Origin: Cannabis sativa
Lineage: Eukaryota > Streptophyta > Magnoliopsida > Rosales > Cannabaceae
Assembly: GCF_029168945.1 (NCBI RefSeq)
Contig: NC_083610.1
Coordinates: forward strand, 73,089,580-73,153,579
Length of the DNA stretch: 64,000 nt
Reading direction: 5' to 3'
Below, one piece after another: positions 23,869 through 53,665 of this stretch; positions within the stretch are counted from its first letter, which is position 1; each line of letters begins with the position of its first letter. The notes under the pieces were generated by a model. That model saw nothing but the letters and a program-made list of their open reading frames with translations, was not told where the DNA came from and searched no databases. The translations under genes and the position numbers were made by a program.

Positions 23869-24156
23869 TGTTGGATCTGCAAAATTGAGAAAATGTGTGT
23901 TCAAATCGAAACAATTGTGCCGGATCTGAGCACAGATTTCTTTTGAAGTAAAAAAAAAAAATCTTAAGAGGTAGATTTAGAGGGAGAGGACTCAGATCTT
24001 ACGGTGTGGATTGCGAAAGGAAGATGTGACAGATGTAGCCCGGTGATATGCTCCTCAGTCAGTAGATGCACATTTCTCATCTCTAAGACATCGTTGTTTA
24101 ATGGTTTTTTAAAAATTAACAACCTTAAATTAATTTTAAATATTTAAATTTAGATT

Positions 24157-24260
24157 GGGAAATTTCATTATTTGCCCTTAATAATATAACCTATATCAAA
24201 ATTTATACCCTTTTATAATTTGTACAAATTTATTCCTCTAATTTTAAAAGATTCCTAAAA
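24157..24260 (+). repeat. MULE left terminal inverted repeat
   Basis: About 100 bp, pairing with 33000-33108 inverted. Shared blocks include ATATCAAAATTTATACCCTT and AATTTGTACAAATTTA. Confidence 0.88.
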
Positions 24261-24365
24261 TACCCCCTAAATTAAACTTTCCCTCTCTCAGACGTTCCCT
24301 CTCTCTTTCTGACGCTCCCTCTCTCTCTCTCTTCACGATCACGAACCCACAACCCACAAACCAGA

Positions 24366-24502
<137 letters not shown>

Positions 24503-24903
24503 CTCCTCACGAGCACGAACCCACAACCCACAACCCCTCACGAACCCACAACCCGCTCCCAGACTCACGAACCCACGAAACCCACGAACCCACGAACCTA
24601 CCAACCCAAGAACCCACGAACCCCACGAAAGTCAAGGCGACCGACGACGACGAAGAGGACGAACACCCACGGCGGCCCACGGCGATCCACGACCACGACG
24701 ACGAAGCACTGAACCACTGAACCACTGAACCACGAAAAGGTAAGTTTTTTTCTGTTTAAATTTTAGAAATTTCAATGCGAATTTGTGTATGTGCTTCAGA
24801 TTTTGTGTGTTTTAGATTGTATATGCGAATCTAGATGTCAATACTTGCATGTTGTATATGTTGGATATGTTTCAATGGTATTTTGTGTGTTTTTACATAG
24901 TTA

Positions 24904-25463
24904 TCGATGAAATGTCGATAGGATATCGATGGTTTACCTTTGTTTGATGTTATGTAGTTTTGCCCTAGAATGTCGACAATTTGTCGACTGTATGTCGATA
25001 GTTTGTCGATAATAAGTTGCAGTTCATTCTTTTGGTAGTTCACTGTTAGAATGTCGACAATTTGTCGACTGTATGTCGATAGTTTGTCGATTATAAATTC
25101 CAGTTGATTCTTTTGGTAGTTTACTGTTAGAATGTCGACAATTTGTCGACTGTATGTCGATAGTTTGTCGATTATAAATTCCAGTTGATTCTTTTGGTAG
25201 TTTATTGTTAGAATGTCGACAATTTGTCGACTGTATGTCGATAGTTTGTCGATTATATGTTGCAGTTGAATCTTTTGGTAGTTTACTGTTAGAATGTCGA
25301 CAATTTGTCGACTGTATGTCGACAAGTTGTCGATGTTGATCGTTTGTCACTGCTTTTATGATAATGTCGATAGCATGTCGATTGTATGTCGACGATTTGT
25401 CGACCAGTATTGAATGTTTGACAATGTCGACAGAATGTCGACATGATGTCGATGTTATGTCGA
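24904..25463 (+). repeat. Left TGTCGAY arrays, 11-bp phased
   Basis: TCGA cores lie at 24904/24915/24926; 24973/24984/24995/25006; then the same set shifted by 81 bp four times (25054, 25135, 25216, 25297 as first sites); then 25367/25378/25389/25400 and 25427/25438/25449/25460. Every step inside an array is 11 bp. Five arrays are embedded in an 81-bp tandem repeat; the last two are free of it yet keep the pitch. The whole tract lies in the predicted first intron (24740-25514) of the ULP1 gene. Confidence 0.95.
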
Positions 25464-25514
25464 CATTTCTTAACTTTTTTGACATTTAAATTTTTTTGGT
25501 CTTTGATTTTTCAG

Positions 25515-28379
25515 ATGGCTCCCAGACTCATTATTCCAGCACCTGAGCATTTTACTGGCCGCGTCACATATAGGGGCATTGGAATTTTTGCAAAAATCAA
25601 AGCTCGGTTTGAGGAGTTCAACCTTAATAACACGGCGAAGGAAAGCCGTTTCGGGAGCTTCTGGAATGTCGTACCCTTGACATTCTCCTCGGTGTTATTT
25701 CACCAGTTGATGCTCCACAAAATGAAAGTGGATGCTCAGGAGGAGTTGAGGATGCGGTTTTATGTTGGTCGGAAGGAGGTCCGATTCGGTTGCACTCATT
25801 ACAGGCCTGGACTTCTCCTCGGGGCCAACAGAAGAGGAGAAGGCTGCGCAGGTCGCGCGCTCGGGGTCAGACCGATTGATCAACAGATATTTCAACCGGT
25901 CTGATAGTGTGAAGACAGAAGTACTCCAACTTCAGTTCACAAACTGCCAGAACCCGGAAGACTTGTACAAGCTCGGCTTGTGCTTGTTTGTGGAGTCAGT
26001 GCTTCTGGGCCGCGAGGCAAACGCGCTGATTACGCCTCACATACTTAGATATGTGGAAGACCTCGAGTTCTTCTTCCGGATTCCTTGGGGGAAGCACTCA
26101 TTCGCCAGACTCATGCACTCGCTTCAGAAATACATGTTGAAACAGAAGGCCAACTACGAGAAGAAGCTGAGTTCGGATGTTCAGCATGAGTGCAAATACA
26201 CAGCATATGGCTTCGCACCTGCAGTACAATATTGGGCGTACGAGGCCATTTTGGAGGTTGGGAAGAGGTATGGCACGAACCACGGGATTCGGTTCCCCAG
26301 GATGCTTAGCTGGACGAGCAAAGGCGATATTGGGAAGAAAGACGTCAGCGCATTATTTTCTAGACGGGTATGATTTTCACTTATGTTCAGAATAATTATT
26401 TAACATAAATGCTTGTAATAAATGCTAAATGGTTTTATTTTGATATTTTTTGAACCATAAATAGAATCTTGAAGTGGTGAAGGGGCTACTTCCACGGACA
26501 GAGGAGGAGGCATTTGTGAGGACCATATCTTACGATGGTGTGGAGAACCTGGTTGATGATGTTGTGGATGACACAGAGGCTGAGGCAGGTAGTCAGGTAG
26601 TCAGGTACCAGAGACTCAGGTCCCAGACACTCAGGAAACAGACACTCAGGTACCAATTTTTGGAACTTTTTTTTTATGTCTTTATTTTTTATTGTTTTTG
26701 TTTTGTGATATTTGTTACATTGTGGAATTATCGCATGCTTACCGTATTTTTTTGATATATATTTTTTCAGGCCACTGGTTCAGAACCTCAGCCAGTGCAC
26801 CATCTTCATCAGGCGTTCGGGGTGCCGAGTACACTGATTTAGTGGCTCGGTTGGATAGGATCGAGGCTGACACTCAGGGTCTGTATGCTACTCATGTCGA
26901 GCTGAAGAAGGCATACGAGACCAGCCATGTAGAGCTGAAGGGTGGTCAGAACGTAATTATGAAGCAGCTCAGAGACATATTGGCCACGTTGAATCGTCCG
27001 CCAACGACAGCTTCAGCACCGGAGGCCCCAGCAGATCCATCTACCCCACCACCAGCTGCTTCACCCCCAGTAGAAGAGGATGAGGTCTTCCCCGACGATT
27101 ACGATCCTTATGAGGGAGCTCCAGCGACTCCGATCGAGGCACAACCTCTTATCCATGTACATGACACCGAGTCGCAGGGTGAGATTCTGTCGATAGAGGC
27201 ACAACCTGCAGTGGTTAAGAGTCAGAAGAGGAAGAGAAAGCCTCCTGTATGGTTCGGTGACTATACGGAGATGAAGAGGAGACATAGGCCATCTTCGACT
27301 TTTGATCCCCTGGAGCCACCGGATGAGAAATTATTAACCACTTTCCGAAAGTGGTGTGTTGGACTCATTCCAAACCACCGACTTCGGGATTTGAGAAGTG
27401 GTGATTACGGTCCAGGATTCTTTTGGATAATGCTCACACCAAAGGAATGGCTTACAGATGACGTAAGTAAAGTATTTTATAATATTACTTCACTTTACAA
27501 CTTTATGTGCAATTAATATATTTTTTTGTCTAACTGACATTTCCCTTCATATGCAGCATATAAATGCAGCAATGCATATGCTGAGGAGGCGACGCACCGA
27601 CTATCCACTGACATTTCCTCAGAAGGGTATCATTCTCTCCACATTCGTGACCGCCATGATCAGCAGTGCATGGACGAGCCACAAGGGTCCGAGGAAAAAC
27701 TTTGTGTGGGAGGATTATATCCTGGACTACTGCACCGGGGCTCATAAGGTATTGTTTTAGTAAGATTTTAAATGTTAATTGTTTGGGAAGATTATTATGG
27801 TTTGTTAATTGTTTCGTTGTTCTCTGTAATTACAGTCCCAAGTCTTTGAGAGATGGAGGGGTAACGAGTTTATTTACTTCGTTCTGAACCTTCCCGAGGC
27901 AAGGCACTGGGTCACAGTTGAAGTCGACATAGAGCTGTGGAAAATTAATGTCTACGACTGTGATTCCAGCGTCTGTCATTGGACCGCCTTGGAACCCATC
28001 CTGAAGGTTTGGGCAGAACTGCTGCCCTCGCTAATCCTTGCAACCGGGGAATTTCCACATAACAACCAGATCATGGCGTTAGCTAACTGTGACATCACGG
28101 TGCTTCCAAAAATGCACTCGACTCGAGCCACTCACGACTTAGTTCCGAAGTCAGCAACCAGGTACATAGCGATAAAAAAGTACTATAGTATTAAAATATG
28201 TTTTACGTTAGACTAACTTTACATTTTATTTTGCATTTAGTGGTGATTGTGGCGTCTATTGCATTGAGTATGTGGAGCATCTCATGATGCAGCGTGGATT
28301 GACCGATGTGACGCCAGACCGGATAGCTATGTTTCGTCAACGGTGGTGTGTTGATTTATTTTACCAAAATGTCGGCTGA
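25515..28379 (+). pseudogene. MULE-borne ULP1-like protein: DUF1985 plus C48 peptidase
   Basis: Predicted non-coding exon ending 24739 (AAAAG/gtaag), then coding exons 25515-26367, 26465-26588, 26771-27462, 27557-27748, 27836-28161, 28241-28379. Exon 1 encodes a DUF1985-like region but shifts frame by one base near 25783-25790: MRFYVGRKEVRF is in one frame, ALITGLDFSSG in the next. The middle is a Pro-rich coiled-coil linker with a KRKRKPP basic patch. The last two exons carry the C48 (SUMO protease) core: His in ARHWVTVE, Asp in VYDCDSS, Cys in GDCGVYC, all present. Without the shift the product would be about 774 aa. The ULP domain probably cleaves SUMO-type linkages; its role for the transposon is unknown. 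Marked as a pseudogene only for the single frameshift, which could be a sequence error. Confidence 0.82.
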
Positions 28380-28641
28380 TTATATGTGTAATTATTGGGA
28401 CATTGTATATTTTGTGTAATTAACATTACAGTTATGTATATATAGATTTTCTTTTCGTTCAAATTTTGATAATTATTCGTGGTTTCAAATATAAAATATC
28501 AATATTATTCAACAAAAATAACTATTAAACCTAAAAATAATTAAAATATTTGAAAAATATTCAACCTCAACAAAAATAACTATGACAAAATATGCATCAT
28601 TACAATATATCAAATTTCCCAACGAATACGTACAAGACGCC

Positions 28642-31600
28642 TCAGATGCGGGCTTTGCATGTTGCTCTGTTGTGGCCTGAACTGCCACAGCGGCTGTAGT
28701 TTCGTGGTACAGAACCTTTTTTATCACCAGACGGGAAACGGTTCTCCCGTCTTCTTCCAGCGTTGCTTTTTCTTGGACAACCTACAGGCTTCTTTTCCAC
28801 AGGTACCCCAACTTTCATATTCTTGATGTGTTCTGGGAGAACCCAATCATCCTCGTCACCAGCAAGATTGATGGTATCATCGTAAATCTTCCTCCACGTT
28901 TCTTTTGAATAATAAGGTGAGCAAAGCGTGTACACACTTGTGTTCGTTTTCAATGCCGCGGCACATGCATGAAGGCAAGGGAGTTTCAATAACGTGAACA
29001 CGCCGCAGGTGCATGTTCTTTCAACTAGATTCACATCACCACCTCTTTCACCGTTAGGTCCCCTACCAACGTTATACAAATTGGCTCCATTTCGTTGGAC
29101 GCGCCTGTACTTTGCATTTTCATGAATTTTTGCCAAGTTTTTTTCAAAGAGCGTGGCCAAAGGGGTGGCACATTTGTTAGCATTTTCGAGGCGATCAGCG
29201 AACCACGATTGGAGTGTGAACCTGATAAATTCAACCAAAGTAGTTATTGGATATTTCCTGAACTCTTCTGTGACACTATTGAAGCTTTCAGCAGCGTTGC
29301 TCGTCATGATGTTGTATCTATCGCCCAAACAATAAGGGTGAGCCCACTTCTCAAACCCTATACTCTCCACATATGCAGCAATGGCCGGATTCATCTTTCT
29401 AAGCTTCTCGAACTCTCTATCGCATTCAGTCTTTGACCATGCGTAAGCAACATTATATATTTGGTTGTGAAAAGCATCAGTCTTGAATTTGGCGTTCACG
29501 TTCATAACAATGTGGTGATAGCATGCACAGTGGACTGCTTCGGAAAAAACGAGTTCAACAGCATGATCAATGCTTTGATGCCTATCTGACACAAACACTA
29601 AGTTCTCAACCACGCCAATTGCTACCCTCAACTTCTGTAAGAAATACGTCCAGGAGTCGTTATTCTCACTGTCAACGATACCATAAGCAACCGGCAACAA
29701 TTGGTTGTTCGCATCGTATGCCACAGCAACTAACATTATACCGTCGTACTTCGTCTTCAAGAAGGTGCCATCGATACTCAAAACAGGACGACAAAAAGAA
29801 AAGCCCCTTCTACATGCACCGAGTGATATAAAACAGTACTTGAACCGCTCATCCTCTAAGTACAAGTCAGTAATGGTACCTGGATTCTTCTGTTCCAGCA
29901 TGTACAAGTACCCAGGAAGCTTCATGTATGAAAACTCAGGCGTACCCCTAGCATACGTAAGTCCCATCTCCCTGCACCTCCACGCCTTCACATAACTCAT
30001 ACTGATACCGTAGTTGTCAAACATGTCCCTCTGTATGTCTTTAGCCTTGTACTTAGTTCCGTCTTGGGTGTACTTCCCCTTAATAAGGTGGCCAACTACC
30101 CATGGTGCTGCTTGACGGTGATCTGAACGTCTCGCATTCAAGTTACATGTGTGTTCATTGTGAAATACAGTGACCTCAAAGTTGTCAGAATGCATCTTCT
30201 TCCTCCCCCTCAATCTCCATTTACAATGCGGAGCCTTGCATGTAACGTACAACACATCAGGGGATGACTTCTTCACCATCCACTCGAAATTGTTATTAAG
30301 TGCAAACCTACCCACTACTTGTCTCAGTTCTTCCTTGTTTTCATAAAAATTACCAAGCTCTATCACCCCTACTTCCTTACTTTGTAAACAAGTAGTTAGC
30401 TCATGATTTTCCATTATATCTTCCTTTGTCCACATGGGAGCTTTGAACTTGGTACAAACTTCAAAAGAGGAGAACGTTGAGAACGTTGCATGACGAGCAT
30501 GTTCTTCAGTTCTGCCTGGTCGACTACTGCTAGTTCCAGGTGTAGTGCGATTTTCACTACGAGGTTGTCGTTCTCGCTGTGTACCTTGGTTACTCGGTAC
30601 ACACTCTAACCTCAACAATGGTCCCGCTACGGGTTCATCGACTGCTAAATCATGTTCATCGTCCATATTCAAATCTACAATAGGATCGTTATTGTAGAAG
30701 GGTGTATCGAACTCTTCAAACTGATGAAATCCTGTCGCTTCTTGTTCTTGCCCTACATTGGTCGGAACCTCTAAATTGGTCGGAACCTCTAAATTGGCCG
30801 GAACCTCCTCATTCACACCAATCCCAACATCTGTTTCGGGAACGCAAGACCCTACCACACTCCGAGGGAGAGGATTAGTAGGCGGCGTAGGCTCCGAATT
30901 CCCAACTTTTCTCACCTTGGTCACGAATAATGGCATAAACTCTGTATTTGACATTGTTTCCCTCATCTCTAAAAACGTTCTCAGTTGGCGTTCTCTCTTA
31001 ATAACCTCTGGCGCAACCATTTTTCCCTTCATGTACAAGGAACAAATCTCCAACTTTAAATCATACGCTACCGGATCAACTTCCAACTCTTCATATAAAA
31101 TTTGTCGCAGTTCTTGTAGGGTTGTCTCGGTTGTAACTGTCAACGTCAAGCTGCTATTTGCTTTGTAAATCCAATTATAATTCTCACATAACCAAACACC
31201 ATCGTACGATACAACAAGGAACACTTTGTCTCCTGCAATTGCAAACCAAAAAAACAAGGTGAGTAAAGGAAAAAACACCCAAAAAAAAATAAAAATCGAC
31301 ATCCCATCGATATCAATAGACATAATGTCGATAATCACAACAGCAGAAATAAGGGCATTGATTGTCGACATTGTGTCGACATACTATCGACATACCGTCG
31401 ACAACCACACCAAGCATGCTCGCCATCGACATAATATCGACATACCGTCGACATTCAATCGACAATTAACAACGGTTACACATTTAATGTTAATAAATTT
31501 TACCTACGTTCCCAACAACCCTTCCCAACTGACACGTTGCATGTCAGACACGTGTCCTATCGACAACCTGTCGACATGACGTCGACATGGCATCGACAAA

Positions 31601-32742
31601 TGTGTTAGCAGTGACACTAAATTGGCATGTTGTCGACATGATGTCGACATAGTATCGACATTCAGTCGATAAATACACTATTTCATGCGTTTTACCTGTA
31701 CAGTTACGCATTTAATGACCATTAAATTTTCATACATTCCCAACATGTTTACTGCTCTATAAAAGCAAATCCCTTTCTTATTCATAAGTGCTCTTGTCTA
31801 CTACTTCTCTCTTACTCTTAAAAATTTCTCTTATTCTTAAGTTCTAAATATGGCCCCAAGAAAGAACAAAGGCAAATTCCCCATCTTAACTCCTGAAGAG
31901 CTGAAGCAGGAGCCTGATGTTGGCATAGTTACTCCTGAAATGCAGAAAGTTTTTGACGCCCAAAGAGCTTTCGAAAGAGAACGATGTGGGAACGAGTTCG
32001 AGTTCGAGCAACTTGAAGCACATTTTTGCAAAACTGGTGTATGGCCGGCTCCACCACCAGGGTTCCCCGAAGGATGCCGTCGTTGCAAACTAGGCATCTT
32101 TAACGGTAAACTGGTGAAGCCTGGAACATTATGCAAGTATTGCAAGGCTCACCCACAAGCCAAAGAATTTTAAAAAAAATAATTTCTTATGTTATGGCTT
32201 GTGGTGAGTTTTATTTAATGTTTGTTTTTTTTTTATGAACTTTATTTTCTGTTTTTTTTTATGTTTTTTATGTTATGTTATGTTTTTAATGAACTTTATT
32301 TAATGTTAATGTTATGTTATGTTTATGTTTTATTCACGGTTTTTTTTCATTTGCATCGATATTTTGTCGACATGATGTCGACAAAATATCGACAACTTCT
32401 AAAAAAAAGAAAAATGCTTGTTATCGACATTCTGTCGACAAAATGTCGACAAATAGTAAATACCATGTTGGTTGCATGATGTCGACAACATGTCGACATT
32501 ATGTCGACATAACGTCGATAATGGTCGTCACTGACCTTTCCTTTTGTAATCATCGACAAACCATCGACATAGTATCGATATATCATCGATAACACTGGAA
32601 AACCCAGAATTCGACTGAAAACCAGATCTGCCAGATCTCAACAATTTCAGACCAAAAAACGACGATTCCAACAAAAAACACACATATAACAATTTTAAAC
32701 TACATAAAGTCAAACAAAATGCTTAAAATACAACTTACCCAT
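28642..32742 (-). CDS. MULE transposase (mudrA-type), intact
   Basis: Predicted exon 1 contributes only ATGG (32742-32739, donor gtaag), spliced to 31232-28642. The join reads MGDKVFLVVSYDGVW and gives 864 aa with no internal stop. Parts in order: N-terminal ubiquitin/PB1-like segment; acidic linker; MuDR-type DNA-binding region with zinc ligands (CKAPHCKWR...HNEHTC) near residues 320-390; MULE DDE domain (SIDGTF; FVSDRHQSI); SWIM zinc finger (CTCGVFTLLKLPCLHAC); basic tail with a CCHC knuckle (CSRCGSSGHNRATC). Starting at 31371 instead would need a hydrophobic, intron-like N-terminus, so I prefer the spliced start. It would bind the TIRs and cut and paste the element. Transcription starts near the right TIR, convergent with the ULP1 gene. 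Confidence 0.88.
31296..31669 (-). repeat. Right TGTCGAY arrays, inner group
   Basis: Five arrays in inverted orientation relative to the left group. TCGA cores: 31296/31307/(decayed)/31328; 31365/31376/31387/31398; 31426/31437/31448/31459; 31560/31571/31582/31593; 31633/31644/31655/31666. Pitch is 11 bp throughout, apart from one lost base in the first array. They lie between the transposase acceptor at 31233 and the small ORF's promoter. Confidence 0.95.
31757..31765 (+). promoter_or_regulatory. TATA box of the small zinc-ribbon ORF
   Basis: CTATAAAAG at 31757-31765 stands 92 bp upstream of the ATG at 31850, with a pyrimidine-rich stretch (31766-31835) between, the layout of a plant promoter and short leader. 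It lies inside the transposase intron on the opposite strand. Confidence 0.6.
31850..32173 (+). CDS. Small zinc-ribbon-like protein inside the MULE
   Basis: A 107-aa ORF (MAPRKNKGKFPILTPEEL...) lying antisense within the first intron of the transposase, with its own TATA box. The N-terminus is basic; the middle is acidic and aromatic (NEFEFEQLEAHF). The C-terminal third holds two CxxC knuckles, CRRC and CKYC, 15 residues apart, likely to bind one zinc ion. I do not recognise the family. TGTCGAY arrays flank it on both sides (31296-31669 and 32356-32589). Intact frame, promoter and Cys pairs argue it is a real element gene; a DNA- or RNA-binding accessory role is a guess. It could instead be a captured host fragment. 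Confidence 0.65.
   Translation: MAPRKNKGKFPILTPEELKQEPDVGIVTPEMQKVFDAQRAFERERCGNEFEFEQLEAHFCKTGVWPAPPPGFPEGCRRCKLGIFNGKLVKPGTLCKYCKAHPQAKEF
32356..32589 (-). repeat. Right TGTCGAY arrays, outer group
   Basis: TCGA cores at 32356/32367/32378/32389; 32424/32435/32446 (three sites); 32482/32493/32504/32515; 32553/32564/32575/32586, all at 11-bp pitch. The group lies between the small ORF and the transposase start exon. Confidence 0.95.
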
Positions 32743-32999
32743 TATAATGGTGTAAGATTCTTGAGTGATATTGAGTTGTGCTTCGGTTTTCCACCAACAC
32801 CCACCGAGAAAACAACCATTCAACAGGGAATAAAGAGAGTGACGAGAGAGTGGGATGGATAGAGGGAAATTTTTTGATAAATTTTTCAGTTTTTTTCTAG
32901 AGAGAGAGAGTGGTGCACGAGAGAGAGGGAAGAGGGAAGAGAGAGAGAAAGATCAATTTCAGATTTTAGCTATTTCATTTTTTTTTTTAAAAAAAAAGA

Positions 33000-33108
33000 G
33001 GGTAAAATGGGAAGTTCATGTAATTAATGGACTAAATTTGTACAAATTAAGGAAGGGTATAAATTTTGATATGGCTTGTATTATTAAGGCCAAAAATTGA
33101 AATTTCCC
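33000..33108 (-). repeat. MULE right terminal inverted repeat
   Basis: Mirror of 24157-24260, ending GAAATTTCCC at 33108. Preceded by a GA-rich stretch (32898-32950), the counterpart of the CT-rich stretch on the left side. Confidence 0.85.
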
Positions 33109-33419
33109 TTTAGATTTCACGTTAATTCAATTAATTAATTATATTTTATAATAAATTTATTAATTATATTATTTAAAATATTTAAATTTATTTATTTTAT
33201 TGTTAATAAAATTAGTTATATATTTTTTTAATATAAATTTAAAATTAGATTAAATTTTATATATTTAAAAATTTTAATTAAATTATATTAGATTTAACTT
33301 TATTATTATATAAATTAATAATTAGATAATAACAACTCTAAGCAAATTGTTGACTTAGAATATGGTTAACTGACAGCAGAGCCTTATTTATTGTTGAATA
33401 TCACTATGTGTAAATAATA

Positions 33420-35094: not shown

Positions 35095-38000
35095 CTAATT
35101 TGGTCCAGAGGTTGGTTGGCTTAAACTTGTTTCTCTTGCCTTTTGCTTCATTCTCCTAATGTTTCTCTTTACAGTTTCTGGGTCTAAATTCTTTTTGGGT
35201 GGACGACCCATCTTTTTCTTCTGTGGAGGTTCCTGATTCATAAACAAGTGCTACTGTCAGATTACAAACTTAAACATGGAAAATGTATTCAAATTATTAG
35301 TACTTAAGAAATGAATATACCTGTTCTTGTACTGGTTTGGGGCAAGTTTTCTTTGTATGTCCAGGATGTTTGCAATTAGAGCAGTTGTTGGACTGCCCAA
35401 ATCTCCTCATTTTAGTTGCACTAGGTGGAGGTTCATCCACTTCTCTTTTTCTAGATTTCTTGGGCCTACCAGGTAAAACAGTTTCTGGTGGTGGAAGATT
35501 GGATTTTTGCCTTTATCAGGCCAGTGTTCAGGGCTAGGCATAGGTGCAATTGCCCCTGCATAAGTGCCTAGAAGGATTCTTTCTTGTAACATGCAGCAAC
35601 AAAATCATAAACTTGAAGCCTTGAATACCATATGCATGCTATTGCATGACCACATGGGATACCTGTGAGGTCAAATGATCTGCAAGAGCATGTCTTCTTC
35701 TCCAAATTAGTTGCTACCACCTCACCAGAAGGGGCTGTGACCTGGAATAATCCACCAACAGACTTGGTGCATTGGCATTTCAGTGCCGATTTCTTGTTCT
35801 TCTCTAGGATGTCAAAGATCTTTTTCCCCACTGGATTGTTCCACTTACTCCAACTGTCAATGTTTTCTTTTTCAGTTACAGCAAAAGCAATAGGAAACAT
35901 GTTGTTGTTTGCATCTATTCCAATTGCTACAAGCAGCATACCTCTGCAATAGCCTTTCAAGAAGCACCCATCCAGCCCAATAATTGGTCTGCAAAACTTG
36001 AAGCCAGCTTTACAAGCTACAAGGCAGATGTAAATTGGTGGGTATTTTGGTGGGTGATTGGGAAGTAAATTGGTGACTGGGTTGGGGTGTGGTTTTTTTA
36101 GTTTGGGTGGGTGTTTTGGCAGGTGTTTTGGTGGGTGATTGGGAAGCAAGATGGTCACTACTACTGGTGGTTTGGTGAGGTGTTTAGGATGCAGTTTTGG
36201 ACCTGGTTTGGGGTGTGGTTGATCTGGTTTGGGGTGTGGTTTTGGCAGGTGTTTTGGTGGGTGATCTGGAAGTGAATTGGGATCTGGTTTAGGGTGGGGT
36301 TTTTCTGGTTTGGGGTGGGGTTTTTCTGGTTTGGGTGGGGGTTTTGGTGGGTGATTGGGAAGCAAGATGGTGATTGCTTTTGGGTGTGCTGGTGGTGGTT
36401 TGGATGGGTGTTTTGGTGGCTGGTTGGGTTGCAAATTGGGACCTGGTTTGGGGTGTTTTATTTCTGGTTTGGATGGGTGTTTGGGAGGGTTTTTTAGTTG
36501 GTGTTTTGGTGCCTGATTGGGTTGCAAAGTGGTCATTGGTTGGGGTGTTCTATTTCTGGTTTGGATGGGTGTTTGGTAGGGTTTTTTGGTTGGTGTTTTG
36601 GTGCCTGATTGGGTTGCAAAGTGGTCACTGGTTTGGGGTGTTCTATTTCTGGTTTGGATGGGTGTTTGGGATGGTGTTCCACTTGGGGATTCGGTTGGTA
36701 GTTTTCTGGTTTGGGTGGCTGATTGGGGTAGGGTTTCAGAAACTGTTGGCGCTTGTTTCTTTCTGGTTTGTGGTGAACTTTTGATTGGGGTCTGCCTTAC
36801 CCTTTTCCTGGTTTGGGGTGGACTGTTGGTTAGGGTTTGCCTTGGCCTTTTTTGGGATTGTGGGGGACTGAGGGTTGGGGTTTGCCTTGGCCTTTTCCTG
36901 GTTTGAGTTGGACTTTTGGTTGGTGATTGGGCCTTTTCTATGTGGGCCTCTGTTGGGTTATCCTCAGCAGTGAATCCAACTTCTCCAAATATACCTTCAA
37001 TTTCTTCTACATTTTCTAATATCTGTACACTAGAGTCACTGTCTCCACTTGAGTCATTGTCTAAATTCTCCACACTATTGTCTTCACTGTCTTCTTCAAT
37101 ATCTGGCATGTACATAAATAACTCATCAACATGTTGCTCAGAATCACCACTACTAGCTTCTAAATAATCTGCTAGTTCCTCCTCAAGATTCTTAAGTGCT
37201 GCCTTGCTCATAACATAGTCTTCAGGTTGGGCACTTACTCGAACATCAACAACAACATCTGCATCATCAGGGAGTTCTTCTATTATGCATCTTTTCAACT
37301 TAGGCCCAGCTATTGTAGAGTGTTTTATTGTTGTCTTCTGACTAGGGCCACCAACAACTGCCAATTCAAGACAATCCCCTCCAAAAGTCCCAAATAGATC
37401 CACATAAACCTCAACTTTCCTATACCTCTTCCTTCTCACGTCATCAAACATACTCAGCAAATCCTTATCACCCTTAAGCACAAATCCATCATTCAACAGT
37501 TTATCTTTAGGCCTAAACCAGAAATGCAGAGGACCATGGCACCACTGTATTTGCATCATCATCCCTTCTAGTTCCATCATATTAAACATATTACTGTGAC
37601 ACTTGTCAAACTCAGTGACAGTGCCACCCTCATACTTTCTCAAACCATTGTCAATGAACCATTTACCCCCATGGTGCATATTTACACTAAAGTACATACC
37701 TAGCAACAAGAAAAGAACAAAACAACAAAATTTAACAGTAAAATAATAGAACTTTCCAATAAAAGTGTCTGTCATATGCTTTAACACCATGTGCAAATAT
37801 TCCCACATGCCAGTGAAAACACTTTACCCCACATAAAATAGCCCCACACTAAAACCAAGTGAAACTTGACTTATTCAACCCACAAAAAATCTATCAAAAT
37901 GCCTTAAATACTACCACTACCATTCTCTAAGAATCTGAACACATCAAATAAATGTGTACACCTAACACAATATCATTCACACCAACACAATCTAACAATA

Positions 38001-51668: not shown

Positions 51669-52849
51669 CTACTCCCTCCATTTGTCAATTACCATTTTCA
51701 ATATTGATTCTCCGGTCACGATGTGAATCTTTACAAGTTATCTCGACTACAAAACTAACACAACCAAATAACGACTTTAAAATTACATAATTGAGGCAAA
51801 CAATGGAACTCTAGCCAACTCTAGGAGCTACATATTACATAGTATATAAATCTATGGAAAAAAATATTTAAATAAATAAAAAAAAATATTTTCTAATTTT
51901 TCTTTTACTCGAAACACTTCTAAATTATTTTTTAATTATAAGCTGCTGCTATGTGTGTATTTTGTTTTGATTTGTGGAATTTATATACAAGTTTTAGTAT
52001 TTATTTAAAAGTAATTTGTAGTATAAATATTTAAGTTTAATTTCTGGTTGTAAATAAATAATTACGTTTAATTTTTTGCAGTTATAATTCTAAAACTTCT
52101 GTAGGTACCTATCCGTTAAATGTCAAATAAATTGCCACGTAAATGTTTCCAATTGGTCTAGATCATTAAATTTTTATTTTTTATTTAAAAATTATATAAA
52201 TATATCAATAAAAAATAACATGTGAATAATGACTTGACACTTAACGGTCATGTTCTAGAATATAACTTAAATATTATTACTATTAAAAATTAAACTTAAG
52301 TATTTATCCAACAGTAAGTTAAACTTAAGTATTTACGTCGCAAAATACTCATTATTTAAAGACCATTCAAATTCTTTTCTTACTTTTTCTTTTCTTTTTT
52401 ATGCAATTTTTTTTTCAAACCTCAAAATTTAGGGACTTTTACACCACACTGAAATTTTCCTTTTTTTTTCTTTTTTTTTGTTTTAAAAAAAAAATATTGT
52501 ATACTATGTTAAGTTTTAACTGTTATTTTTAATTATTCTATTTAGTATTTTACAGTTGTTTTATAAAAAAGATAGTATTTTTGTAAAAGTTTCTGCGTAG
52601 TAGTAAAATTATATACTTTTGTCTAAAATCCAGTATTTTTGTAAAAATCCAAATCCTATTAACATATAAGCCCAGATTGAAAGGATATTGGGCTTTGGTG
52701 AGGCCCAAAATCCACAAAATAGAGATAGAGAAGAGAGAAGAAGAAGAAGAGAAATAGGATAAGAAAAGGAAATCAGGAGAGTGAATGTTATGCTCTGGTG
52801 AGCTGAGTCTTTGTTTGGAGTCATAACAAAGAAGAAGAAGAAGAAAAAA
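51669..52849. other. Intergenic; RPL3 promoter side
   Basis: AT-rich sequence without a recognisable gene. 52,650-52,849 is purine-rich and likely contains the promoter and leader of the plastid L3 gene. Confidence 0.4.
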
Positions 52850-53665
52850 ATGTCAACAACTATGTCCTCCACCATTTCCTTCTCAGTCGGAACCCTGTTC
52901 AACAAACCCAAACCCAATTTCACCCTGCGCTCCTCCTTCCTCGGTCCTCCTCCCAAACTCCACCTCAAAACGACACCGTCCTCGTCAAAATTCACCATGA
53001 GCGTCGAGGCCGGCATCGGATTAATGGCCACCAAGCTAGGCATGATGAGTTTCTTCGAGTCCGACGGCAAGGTCGTTCCCGTAACCGTCGTCGGCTTCAA
53101 GGAAGGCAACATTGTCACCCAGGTCAAGACCCAGGCCACGGATGGATACGACGCCGTTCAGGTGGGATACCGCCGTGTGAGGGACCGGAAACTGACCAAG
53201 CCGGAGATGGGTCATCTAGAGAAGGCCGGAGCTATCCCTATGCGCCATCTACAGGAGTTTCGGCTGCAATCGGTGGAGGGGTTCGAGGCGAACCAGAAGC
53301 TGGTGTTGGAGGAGCTTTTCAAGGAAGGGGATTTGGTCGATGTTTCGGGGACGACGATTGGGAAAGGGTTTCAGGGTGGTATCAAACGTCATCACTTCAA
53401 GAGGGGTCTGATGACTCATGGGTCCAAAAGCCATAGAGCTCTGGGTTCCATTGGAGCTGGAACCACTCCTGGTAGAGTTTACAAGGGGAAGAAGATGCCT
53501 GGTCGAATGGGAGGGACTAAGCGTAAGATTCGAAAGCTCAAAATTGTAAAGATCGATAAAGAACTCAATGTTGTTATGATCAAAGGCGCTCTTCCTGGAA
53601 AGCCTGGTAATCTTCTCAGGATTACACCTGCTAAGATTGTTGGCGTAAACATTCCCAAGAACTAA
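52850..53665 (+). CDS. RPL3: Plastid ribosomal protein L3 (uL3c), nuclear gene
   Basis: Single-exon 271-aa gene. Residues 1 to about 50 are Ser/Thr/Pro-rich and basic, a chloroplast transit peptide. The mature part begins near VEAGIGLMATKLGMMSFF and follows bacterial-type L3: KVVPVTVV, YDAVQVGYR, KGFQGGIKRHHF, MTHGSKSHRALGSIGAGTTPGRV, KGKKMPGRMGG. The GxTPGRVxKGKxMPG stretch is the extended loop that reaches the peptidyl-transferase centre of the 50S subunit. The second ATG of the N-terminus (MSTTM-S) could also serve as start. The gene has noticeably higher GC than its surroundings. Confidence 0.95.
   Translation: MSTTMSSTISFSVGTLFNKPKPNFTLRSSFLGPPPKLHLKTTPSSSKFTMSVEAGIGLMATKLGMMSFFESDGKVVPVTVVGFKEGNIVTQVKTQATDGYDAVQVGYRRVRDRKLTKPEMGHLEKAGAIPMRHLQEFRLQSVEGFEANQKLVLEELFKEGDLVDVSGTTIGKGFQGGIKRHHFKRGLMTHGSKSHRALGSIGAGTTPGRVYKGKKMPGRMGGTKRKIRKLKIVKIDKELNVVMIKGALPGKPGNLLRITPAKIVGVNIPKN

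Follow-up and report, generated by a model that had tools for sequence, protein, structure and literature searches.

Four-site arrays at an 11-bp pitch in a Cannabis sativa Mutator-like element are putative targets of a VANC-type anti-silencing protein encoded by the same element

Introduction

VANC21, the anti-silencing protein of the Arabidopsis transposon VANDAL21, removes methylation. It binds the motif YAGTATTAY in introns and in intergenic and terminal noncoding parts, where the motifs are dense, keep one orientation and often lie within fast-changing tandem repeats; the targets of VANC6 carry other motifs (PMC5735166). VANDAL elements are described in PMC10398659 as having degenerate terminal inverted repeats (TIRs), and a table in PMC6446971 gives TIRs of 46–174 bp for some members of the VANDAL group. 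In KIU elements, motifs are recognised by the products of VANC genes that bear an Ulp1 domain, which is strongly conserved in the eudicot clade (2026 review, PMC13317346). Here we describe a Mutator-like element (MULE) of Cannabis sativa that carries two blocks of short, regularly spaced words on the 5' sides of two of its genes, one of which encodes a VANC-like protein. The element lies in a stretch of 64,000 nucleotides (RefSeq assembly GCF_029168945.1, contig NC_083610.1, positions 73,089,580 to 73,153,579 of the forward strand), which we call the window.

Results

A listing of every TCGA in the window gave 17 runs with a spacing of exactly 11 bp, 8 on the left side of the element and 9 on the right (Table 1). 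Four sites were present in 14 of the 17 runs, three sites in two and two sites in one, in agreement with the count of the original prediction. The region 24850-25500 held 23 pairs of TCGA at 11 bp and the region 31280-32620 held 24, compared with means of 0.06 and 0.04 (maxima 2 and 1) in 500 dinucleotide shuffles per region; pairs at 10 or 12 bp were absent from both. The whole element contains 85 TCGA sites: the left block has 31 and the right block 38, and 16 lie elsewhere. The predicted motif TGTCGAY kept its TCGAY core but not its fixed G: among unique sites the second position was G in 83% (left) and 80% (right) and A in 16% and 19%, and the array unit is thus TRTCGAYNNNN. Genome-wide, a three-site TGTCGAY pattern gave 1786 and 1826 matches on the two strands, where some arrays may match both strands; the reversed pattern, used as a control, gave none on either. 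As had been noted, only some of the left arrays, namely five of eight, are spanned by the 81-bp tandem repeat. A coding origin of the arrays was discounted on the ground already given in the prediction, that 11 is not a multiple of three, and because the blocks lie outside the coding parts matched by Pfam.

The left arrays lie between a GGTAAGT (24739) and a CAG that immediately precedes an ATG at 25515, which makes it probable that they are inside a 5' leader intron of the DUF1985 gene. The right arrays are on the 5' side of the transposase gene, and a minus-strand GGTAAGT is found at 32739-32733. In both blocks, TRTCGAY has the same sense as the gene to which the block lies 5' (DUF1985 on the left, the transposase on the right). 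The predicted mirror orientation was confirmed and can be explained: both blocks are sense-oriented to their own gene, and the two genes converge.

The host had been described as a MULE with an ULP1-type gene. A MULE transposase (PF10551, 1.1e-24) and a flanking duplication, both characteristic of Mutator-like elements, were found, but the element is wider than had been described (24157-33108), and the gene that contains the Ulp1 domain also encodes a DUF1985 domain (within 25750-26370, E=3.9e-13). The C48 peptidase (Ulp1) was matched at E=3.6e-13 when exons 27557-27748, 27836-28161 and 28241-28381 were joined; a single Ulp1 exon alone reached 0.011, under the cut-off. From strand, order and splice-like signals we infer a single gene that comprises the DUF1985 and Ulp1 exons. 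In the window copy its DUF1985 part is disrupted by one frame break near 25.78 kb, which is absent from the relative P0006. The 8-bp flanking repeat was exact in the window element and in two further copies (c9 and L050), and 7 of its 8 letters agreed in copy c1.

A profile built from four relatives of the DUF1985 protein (A1) matched VANC21 (9lnj, 9lnk) over residues 88-240 with E=1.9e-8, and VANC21 was the only PDB sequence that it matched at E<=1. A single relative (P0008) matched VANC21 at 6e-8, and the window's own DUF1985 fragment at 0.0013 (best of two).

The constraint on the arrays was examined in an alignment of 30 right regions (the window and 29 copies). Nucleotide diversity (pi) was computed without the window row and only for columns in which the window has the majority base. 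Columns of the T.TCGA core had a mean pi of 0.0078 and were invariant in 149 of 165 cases, compared with 0.0595 and 430 of 667 for spacer columns; none of 20000 resamples was as low as the core. A first pass had given pi values of 0.079 for R, 0.085 for Y, 0.144 for the linkers, 0.075 for spacers and 0.084 for spacer CpG (22 positions). The corresponding values were 0.015 for MURA coding sequence (335 bp; CpG therein 0.048) and 0.044 for the gene of a 107-aa protein (CpG therein 0.041). The core letters T, T, C, G and A are thus preserved, changes at R and Y mostly stay within the purine or pyrimidine class, and variation is greatest in the 4-bp linkers, whose length is conserved but whose sequence is not. 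We conclude that the arrays are real and, judged by their conservation, a selected feature.

For the statistics of site number, we used 50 records and counted runs that were unique by sequence, not by descent; L001-L009, L039, L040, L045 and L046 (overlaps, duplicates, partial copies) and L052 (no sites) were excluded. Neighbouring sites were 11 bp apart in 426 unique pairs, 10 bp in 7 and 12 bp in 3. The 323 unique runs comprised 213 full four-slot runs, 22 four-slot runs with one interior loss, 38 three-site and 44 two-site runs, 5 of the form 101 and 1 six-site run. Four slots were therefore present in 235 of 323, and more than four in one. Among the unique three-site arrays (34), 11 were flanked by a slot that differs from TRTCGAY by a single change (chance 0.5%); in 9 of the 11 this change was a CpG transition. 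The other 23 arrays had no such slot. Lost interior slots were one step from TRTCGAY in 22 of 27 cases, and 10 of the 22 steps were CpG transitions (binomial 0.0015 against an expectation of 2 in 12, under a null without transition bias). These data are suggestive of past germ-line methylation of the sites.

Distances between neighbouring arrays (49 regions) fall into groups of 27–28, 34–38, 46–48 and 57 bp, about 10 bp apart. This is suggestive of a helical phasing of whole arrays, but we make no such claim: the Rayleigh statistic was similar for periods of 9.5–11.5 in 38 spacer clusters, in which ancestry is still present.

A protein search of the genome, in which 50 of 3989 candidates were scored and 52 matches listed, yielded 30 loci that we excised, the window's own included. 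Arrays were present 5' of MURA in all 30; the copies are 93–100% identical to the query, and this result therefore shows only shared descent. On the left side, 12 stretches were examined and TRTCGAY arrays were found in 11 (two partly covered), with none in L052. When four copies were extended leftwards, the left block was present in c1 and c9. The alignment of c5 and c6 to the window begins only at 27821 and 28481, respectively, and neither has left arrays.

We compared the spacers of nine left regions with those of the window after masking the arrays (E 0.01). Two regions, L060 and one arm of L050 (L050L), had no match at this threshold. In c1 and L054 the match was limited to 15 bp near the gene, and in c9, L059, L055 and L050R to stretches of 22–34 bp; L053, which is of the window's own type, matched throughout. 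The compared regions nevertheless retain TRTCGAY at 11 bp, mostly in four-slot arrays, despite mostly unrelated spacers. The adjoining element is about 97% identical to that of the window in c1 and c9. Unrelated left spacers could have arisen either by divergence in place or by swapping of blocks between lineages. The expectation that four-site, 11-bp arrays persist in related copies while spacers differ thus held in this one genome, and recent duplication alone is, as had been argued, insufficient to account for them.

Some derivatives also keep arrays. L050 includes a derivative of 2472 bp that has a left-type end on either side and retains fragments of the DUF1985 gene start. It occupies positions 157-2628 (C1 about 15965456-15967927), has 14 inward-reading array runs and is flanked by the exact 8-bp repeat. 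In L049, a nested short element (about 614-1781) lies beside another copy; both of its arms resemble the right end of the family (79–81%), and arrays are present. L051 likewise carries arrays; none of the window's proteins has a match in it.

The genome was also searched for DUF1985 domains (150 of 1690 candidates scored and listed). A sister sequence, L065, is 56% identical to P0006 over the first 70 residues and has the same layout with an ATG-adjacent intron. Its upstream stretch contains five clusters of NNCGAY: three comprise four sites at spacings of 10, 11 or 12 bp, one has three sites and CGAG in the remaining slot, and one has three sites and a fourth 18 bp off. Pairs at 10–12 bp numbered 12, compared with a mean of 0.15 and a maximum of 2 in 1000 shuffles. 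A strict three-site pattern of AGCGAYAT at 11 bp gave 11 matches in the genome and none in the control. Seven of the 11 lie exactly 320 bp from one of the listed DUF1985 domains, and this identical distance indicates that the copies behind them are close relatives. A changed word in this family is what a co-evolving protein and target would predict, as seen in one sister stretch. In the families of L064, L066, L067 and L068, the DUF1985 domain comes after an intron.

Table 1. Positions of the element, its genes and its arrays within the window
Feature	Position	Strand	Remarks
Whole MULE, 8952 bp	24157..33108	.	Inverted repeats and 8-bp flanking repeat at 24149-24156 and 33109-33116
Left TIR, 87 bp	24157..24243	+	86.2% identity to right TIR
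Probable 5' leader intron of DUF1985 gene	24740..25514	+	Contains all 8 left arrays; splice-like signals only
Left block, 8 arrays of TRTCGAYNNNN at 11 bp	24904..25465	+	One three-site, seven four-site
Left-array starts	24904 (three sites), 24973, 25054, 25135, 25216, 25297, 25367, 25427		Four sites unless stated
81-bp tandem repeat, 4.6 copies	24966..25334	+	
Putative DUF1985-Ulp1 gene (VANC-like, KIU-type)	25515..28381	+	Pfam domains; Ulp1 from three joined exons
MURA-type transposase (MULE, Transposase_mut, DBD_Tnp_Mut, SWIM)	28645..31236	-	Open frame continues to 31383, into first right array
Right block R1, 5 arrays	31296..31671	-	One two-site, four four-site; 5' of MURA, between MURA and 107-aa gene
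107-aa protein, CxxC...CxxC	31850..32173	+	4/5 relatives from Cannabis sativa
Right block R2, 4 arrays	32356..32591	-	One three-site, three four-site
Right-array starts	31296 (two sites), 31365, 31426, 31560, 31633, 32356, 32424 (three sites), 32482, 32553		Four sites unless stated
Right TIR, 87 bp	33022..33108	-	

Discussion

We propose that the arrays are cis targets of a sequence-specific anti-silencing system of the VANC type (KIU-type) that is encoded by the same MULE, a reading to which we give a probability of roughly three in four. It draws on the arrays themselves, their conservation, their persistence between mostly unrelated spacers, the family homology to VANC21 and the one sister family with another word, all computed here. 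Because of the homology to VANC proteins, we propose that the DUF1985-Ulp1 protein would dock on the TRTCGAY words every 11 bp, about one turn of DNA, each array holding four protein units, or a single oligomer, along one side of the helix. Helical periodicity is reportedly named as a determinant of VANC targeting in the abstract of a 2022 EMBO J paper, and the 11-bp pitch seen here agrees with such a periodicity. The blocks would load many copies of the protein near the starts of the DUF1985 and transposase genes. Bound protein would then remove or exclude DNA methylation locally and allow both genes to be expressed and related copies to be mobilised. Array blocks are retained in some non-autonomous derivatives. 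An action of the Ulp1 part on SUMO-linked silencing proteins is conceivable but speculative.

The original prediction saw the arrays as a protein-binding platform with a role in transposition, expression or control of silencing. Such a platform, under selection, is supported by conservation, pitch and persistence. The binders suggested there (the transposase, the 107-aa protein or a host factor) do not include the candidate that we consider best, the element's own DUF1985-Ulp1 protein. Silencing control was among the suggested roles, and we favour it in the form of anti-silencing.

The closest parallel is with VANDAL21/VANC21 and VANC6 of Arabidopsis (PMC5735166, PMC10398659). Both systems have a MULE transposase, tandem repeats and a DUF1985 protein that belongs to one common family, and in both, short motifs are densely placed in introns and intergenic noncoding DNA and share one orientation. 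In Arabidopsis the word differs between related families; the one Cannabis sister family with arrays also has another word. The Cannabis element differs in its near-strict rule of four sites at 11 bp, its 8-bp flanking repeat and the Ulp1 domain in the gene. KIU/Kaonashi-type MULEs share a DUF1985-type gene with Ulp1; they are reported as non-TIR (PMC13317346), unlike the element described here. Assignment to VANDAL as a non-TIR MULE was rejected, given the two 87-bp TIRs at 86.2% identity where degenerate or absent TIRs are expected, a distinction that is itself not sharp in view of the TIRs tabulated for some members (PMC6446971).

Several observations weigh against our proposal. TRTCGAY contains a CpG, whereas the VANC21 and VANC6 motifs given in PMC5735166 (YAGTATTAY and AGTTGTMC) have none, and the clear TIRs stand against the degenerate TIRs described for VANDAL elements (PMC10398659). 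Copies c5 and c6 have right arrays and neither a detectable DUF1985 gene nor a left block in the stretch read, which would be compatible with action in trans. Support from sister families comes from one stretch, and the seven matches elsewhere in the genome belong to close relatives. In four further DUF1985 families (L064, L066, L067 and L068) no 11-bp arrays were found in the 0.7–1.1 kb read; not every DUF1985 gene therefore has such arrays at this place. Within the VANC kind, the CpG core, the four-slot rule and the TIRs are the less usual traits.

In the transposons En/Spm and Ac, short repeated words occur subterminally on both sides, read inward and are bound by unrelated transposon proteins. 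By the same principle, MURA could bind the mirror-oriented arrays to pair both ends of the element. The orientation on both sides and the retention of arrays in non-autonomous derivatives would fit this model, which we consider unlikely. The arrays lie about 0.5–1.8 kb from the ends and adjoin genes, whereas those of En/Spm and Ac are closer to the ends, and we know of no strict four-slot, one-turn layout in either. The accompanying protein family, moreover, matches a known motif-binding VANC protein, and in the sister family the word has changed in front of a DUF1985 gene.

Slightly less probable still is that the sites serve the 107-aa CxxC protein or a recruited host factor for transcription or silencing. 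The gene for the 107-aa protein is situated between blocks R1 and R2 and shows conservation among relatives (a mean column identity of 81% in six rows), but its product had no match in Pfam and no relative among solved structures (best E=0.63). A host protein that reads CpG could suit the TCGA core; it would fail to explain why a sister family in this genome uses a different word.

It is quite improbable that the arrays act as RNA, with sense-strand UGUCGAY in leader introns affecting splicing or nuclear retention. All left arrays do lie in a probable intron and in the sense direction; the introns are putative, however, and a fixed pitch near the helical turn with a strict CpG core points to double-stranded DNA. 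That the arrays are functionless leftovers of tandem duplication is scarcely credible: an 81-bp tandem makes up part of the left block, and earlier duplications of modules of array plus spacer probably produced many arrays, but pure tandem expansion is largely contradicted by a core that is much less variable than the spacers although it contains CpG, and by the persistence of arrays with mostly unrelated spacers.

The VANC-type reading has a possible extension, which we regard as tentative and rather doubtful. Because every target word has a central CpG, a self-reinforcing methylation switch is conceivable: methylation of the arrays by the host would block the anti-silencing protein, bound protein would keep the arrays unmethylated, and two stable states would result. 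In the same reading, the four slots, spaced by one turn, would define an assembly of exactly four units that recurs in modular form and persists in the sister family despite the changed flanking letters of its word.

No published binding test on this element was found in the literature searched, and the titles and opening lines of abstracts on Cannabis MULEs had nothing about these elements. Our findings would add a high-copy MULE family of Cannabis to a system characterised in Arabidopsis and do not point to a new kind of system. The target code of the Cannabis family is unusually readable, with a conserved T.TCGA core, free linkers, a fixed pitch and four slots. This makes it possible to test directly how VANC proteins recognise DNA and whether CpG methylation of the target decides between the silent and the active state. 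The natural arrays with varied linkers and lost slots (the 323 unique runs of the 50 records) are a ready mutational series.

Other features of the window

Predicted structures were too poor for use, with pLDDT values of 35.8 for the DUF1985 relative P0006 and 58.2 for the 107-aa protein. The element also contains a perfect (TC)65 run (24369-24499), at a place that would belong to the leader exon of the DUF1985 gene. A second MULE-like frame (35571-37823, minus strand, 751 aa), some 2.5 kb beyond the element, has a SWIM domain (7.7e-8) and a MULE domain slightly below its cut-off; no 11-bp TCGA runs occur there. At 52802-53662, the window contains a frame that matches ribosomal protein L3 (1.5e-16).

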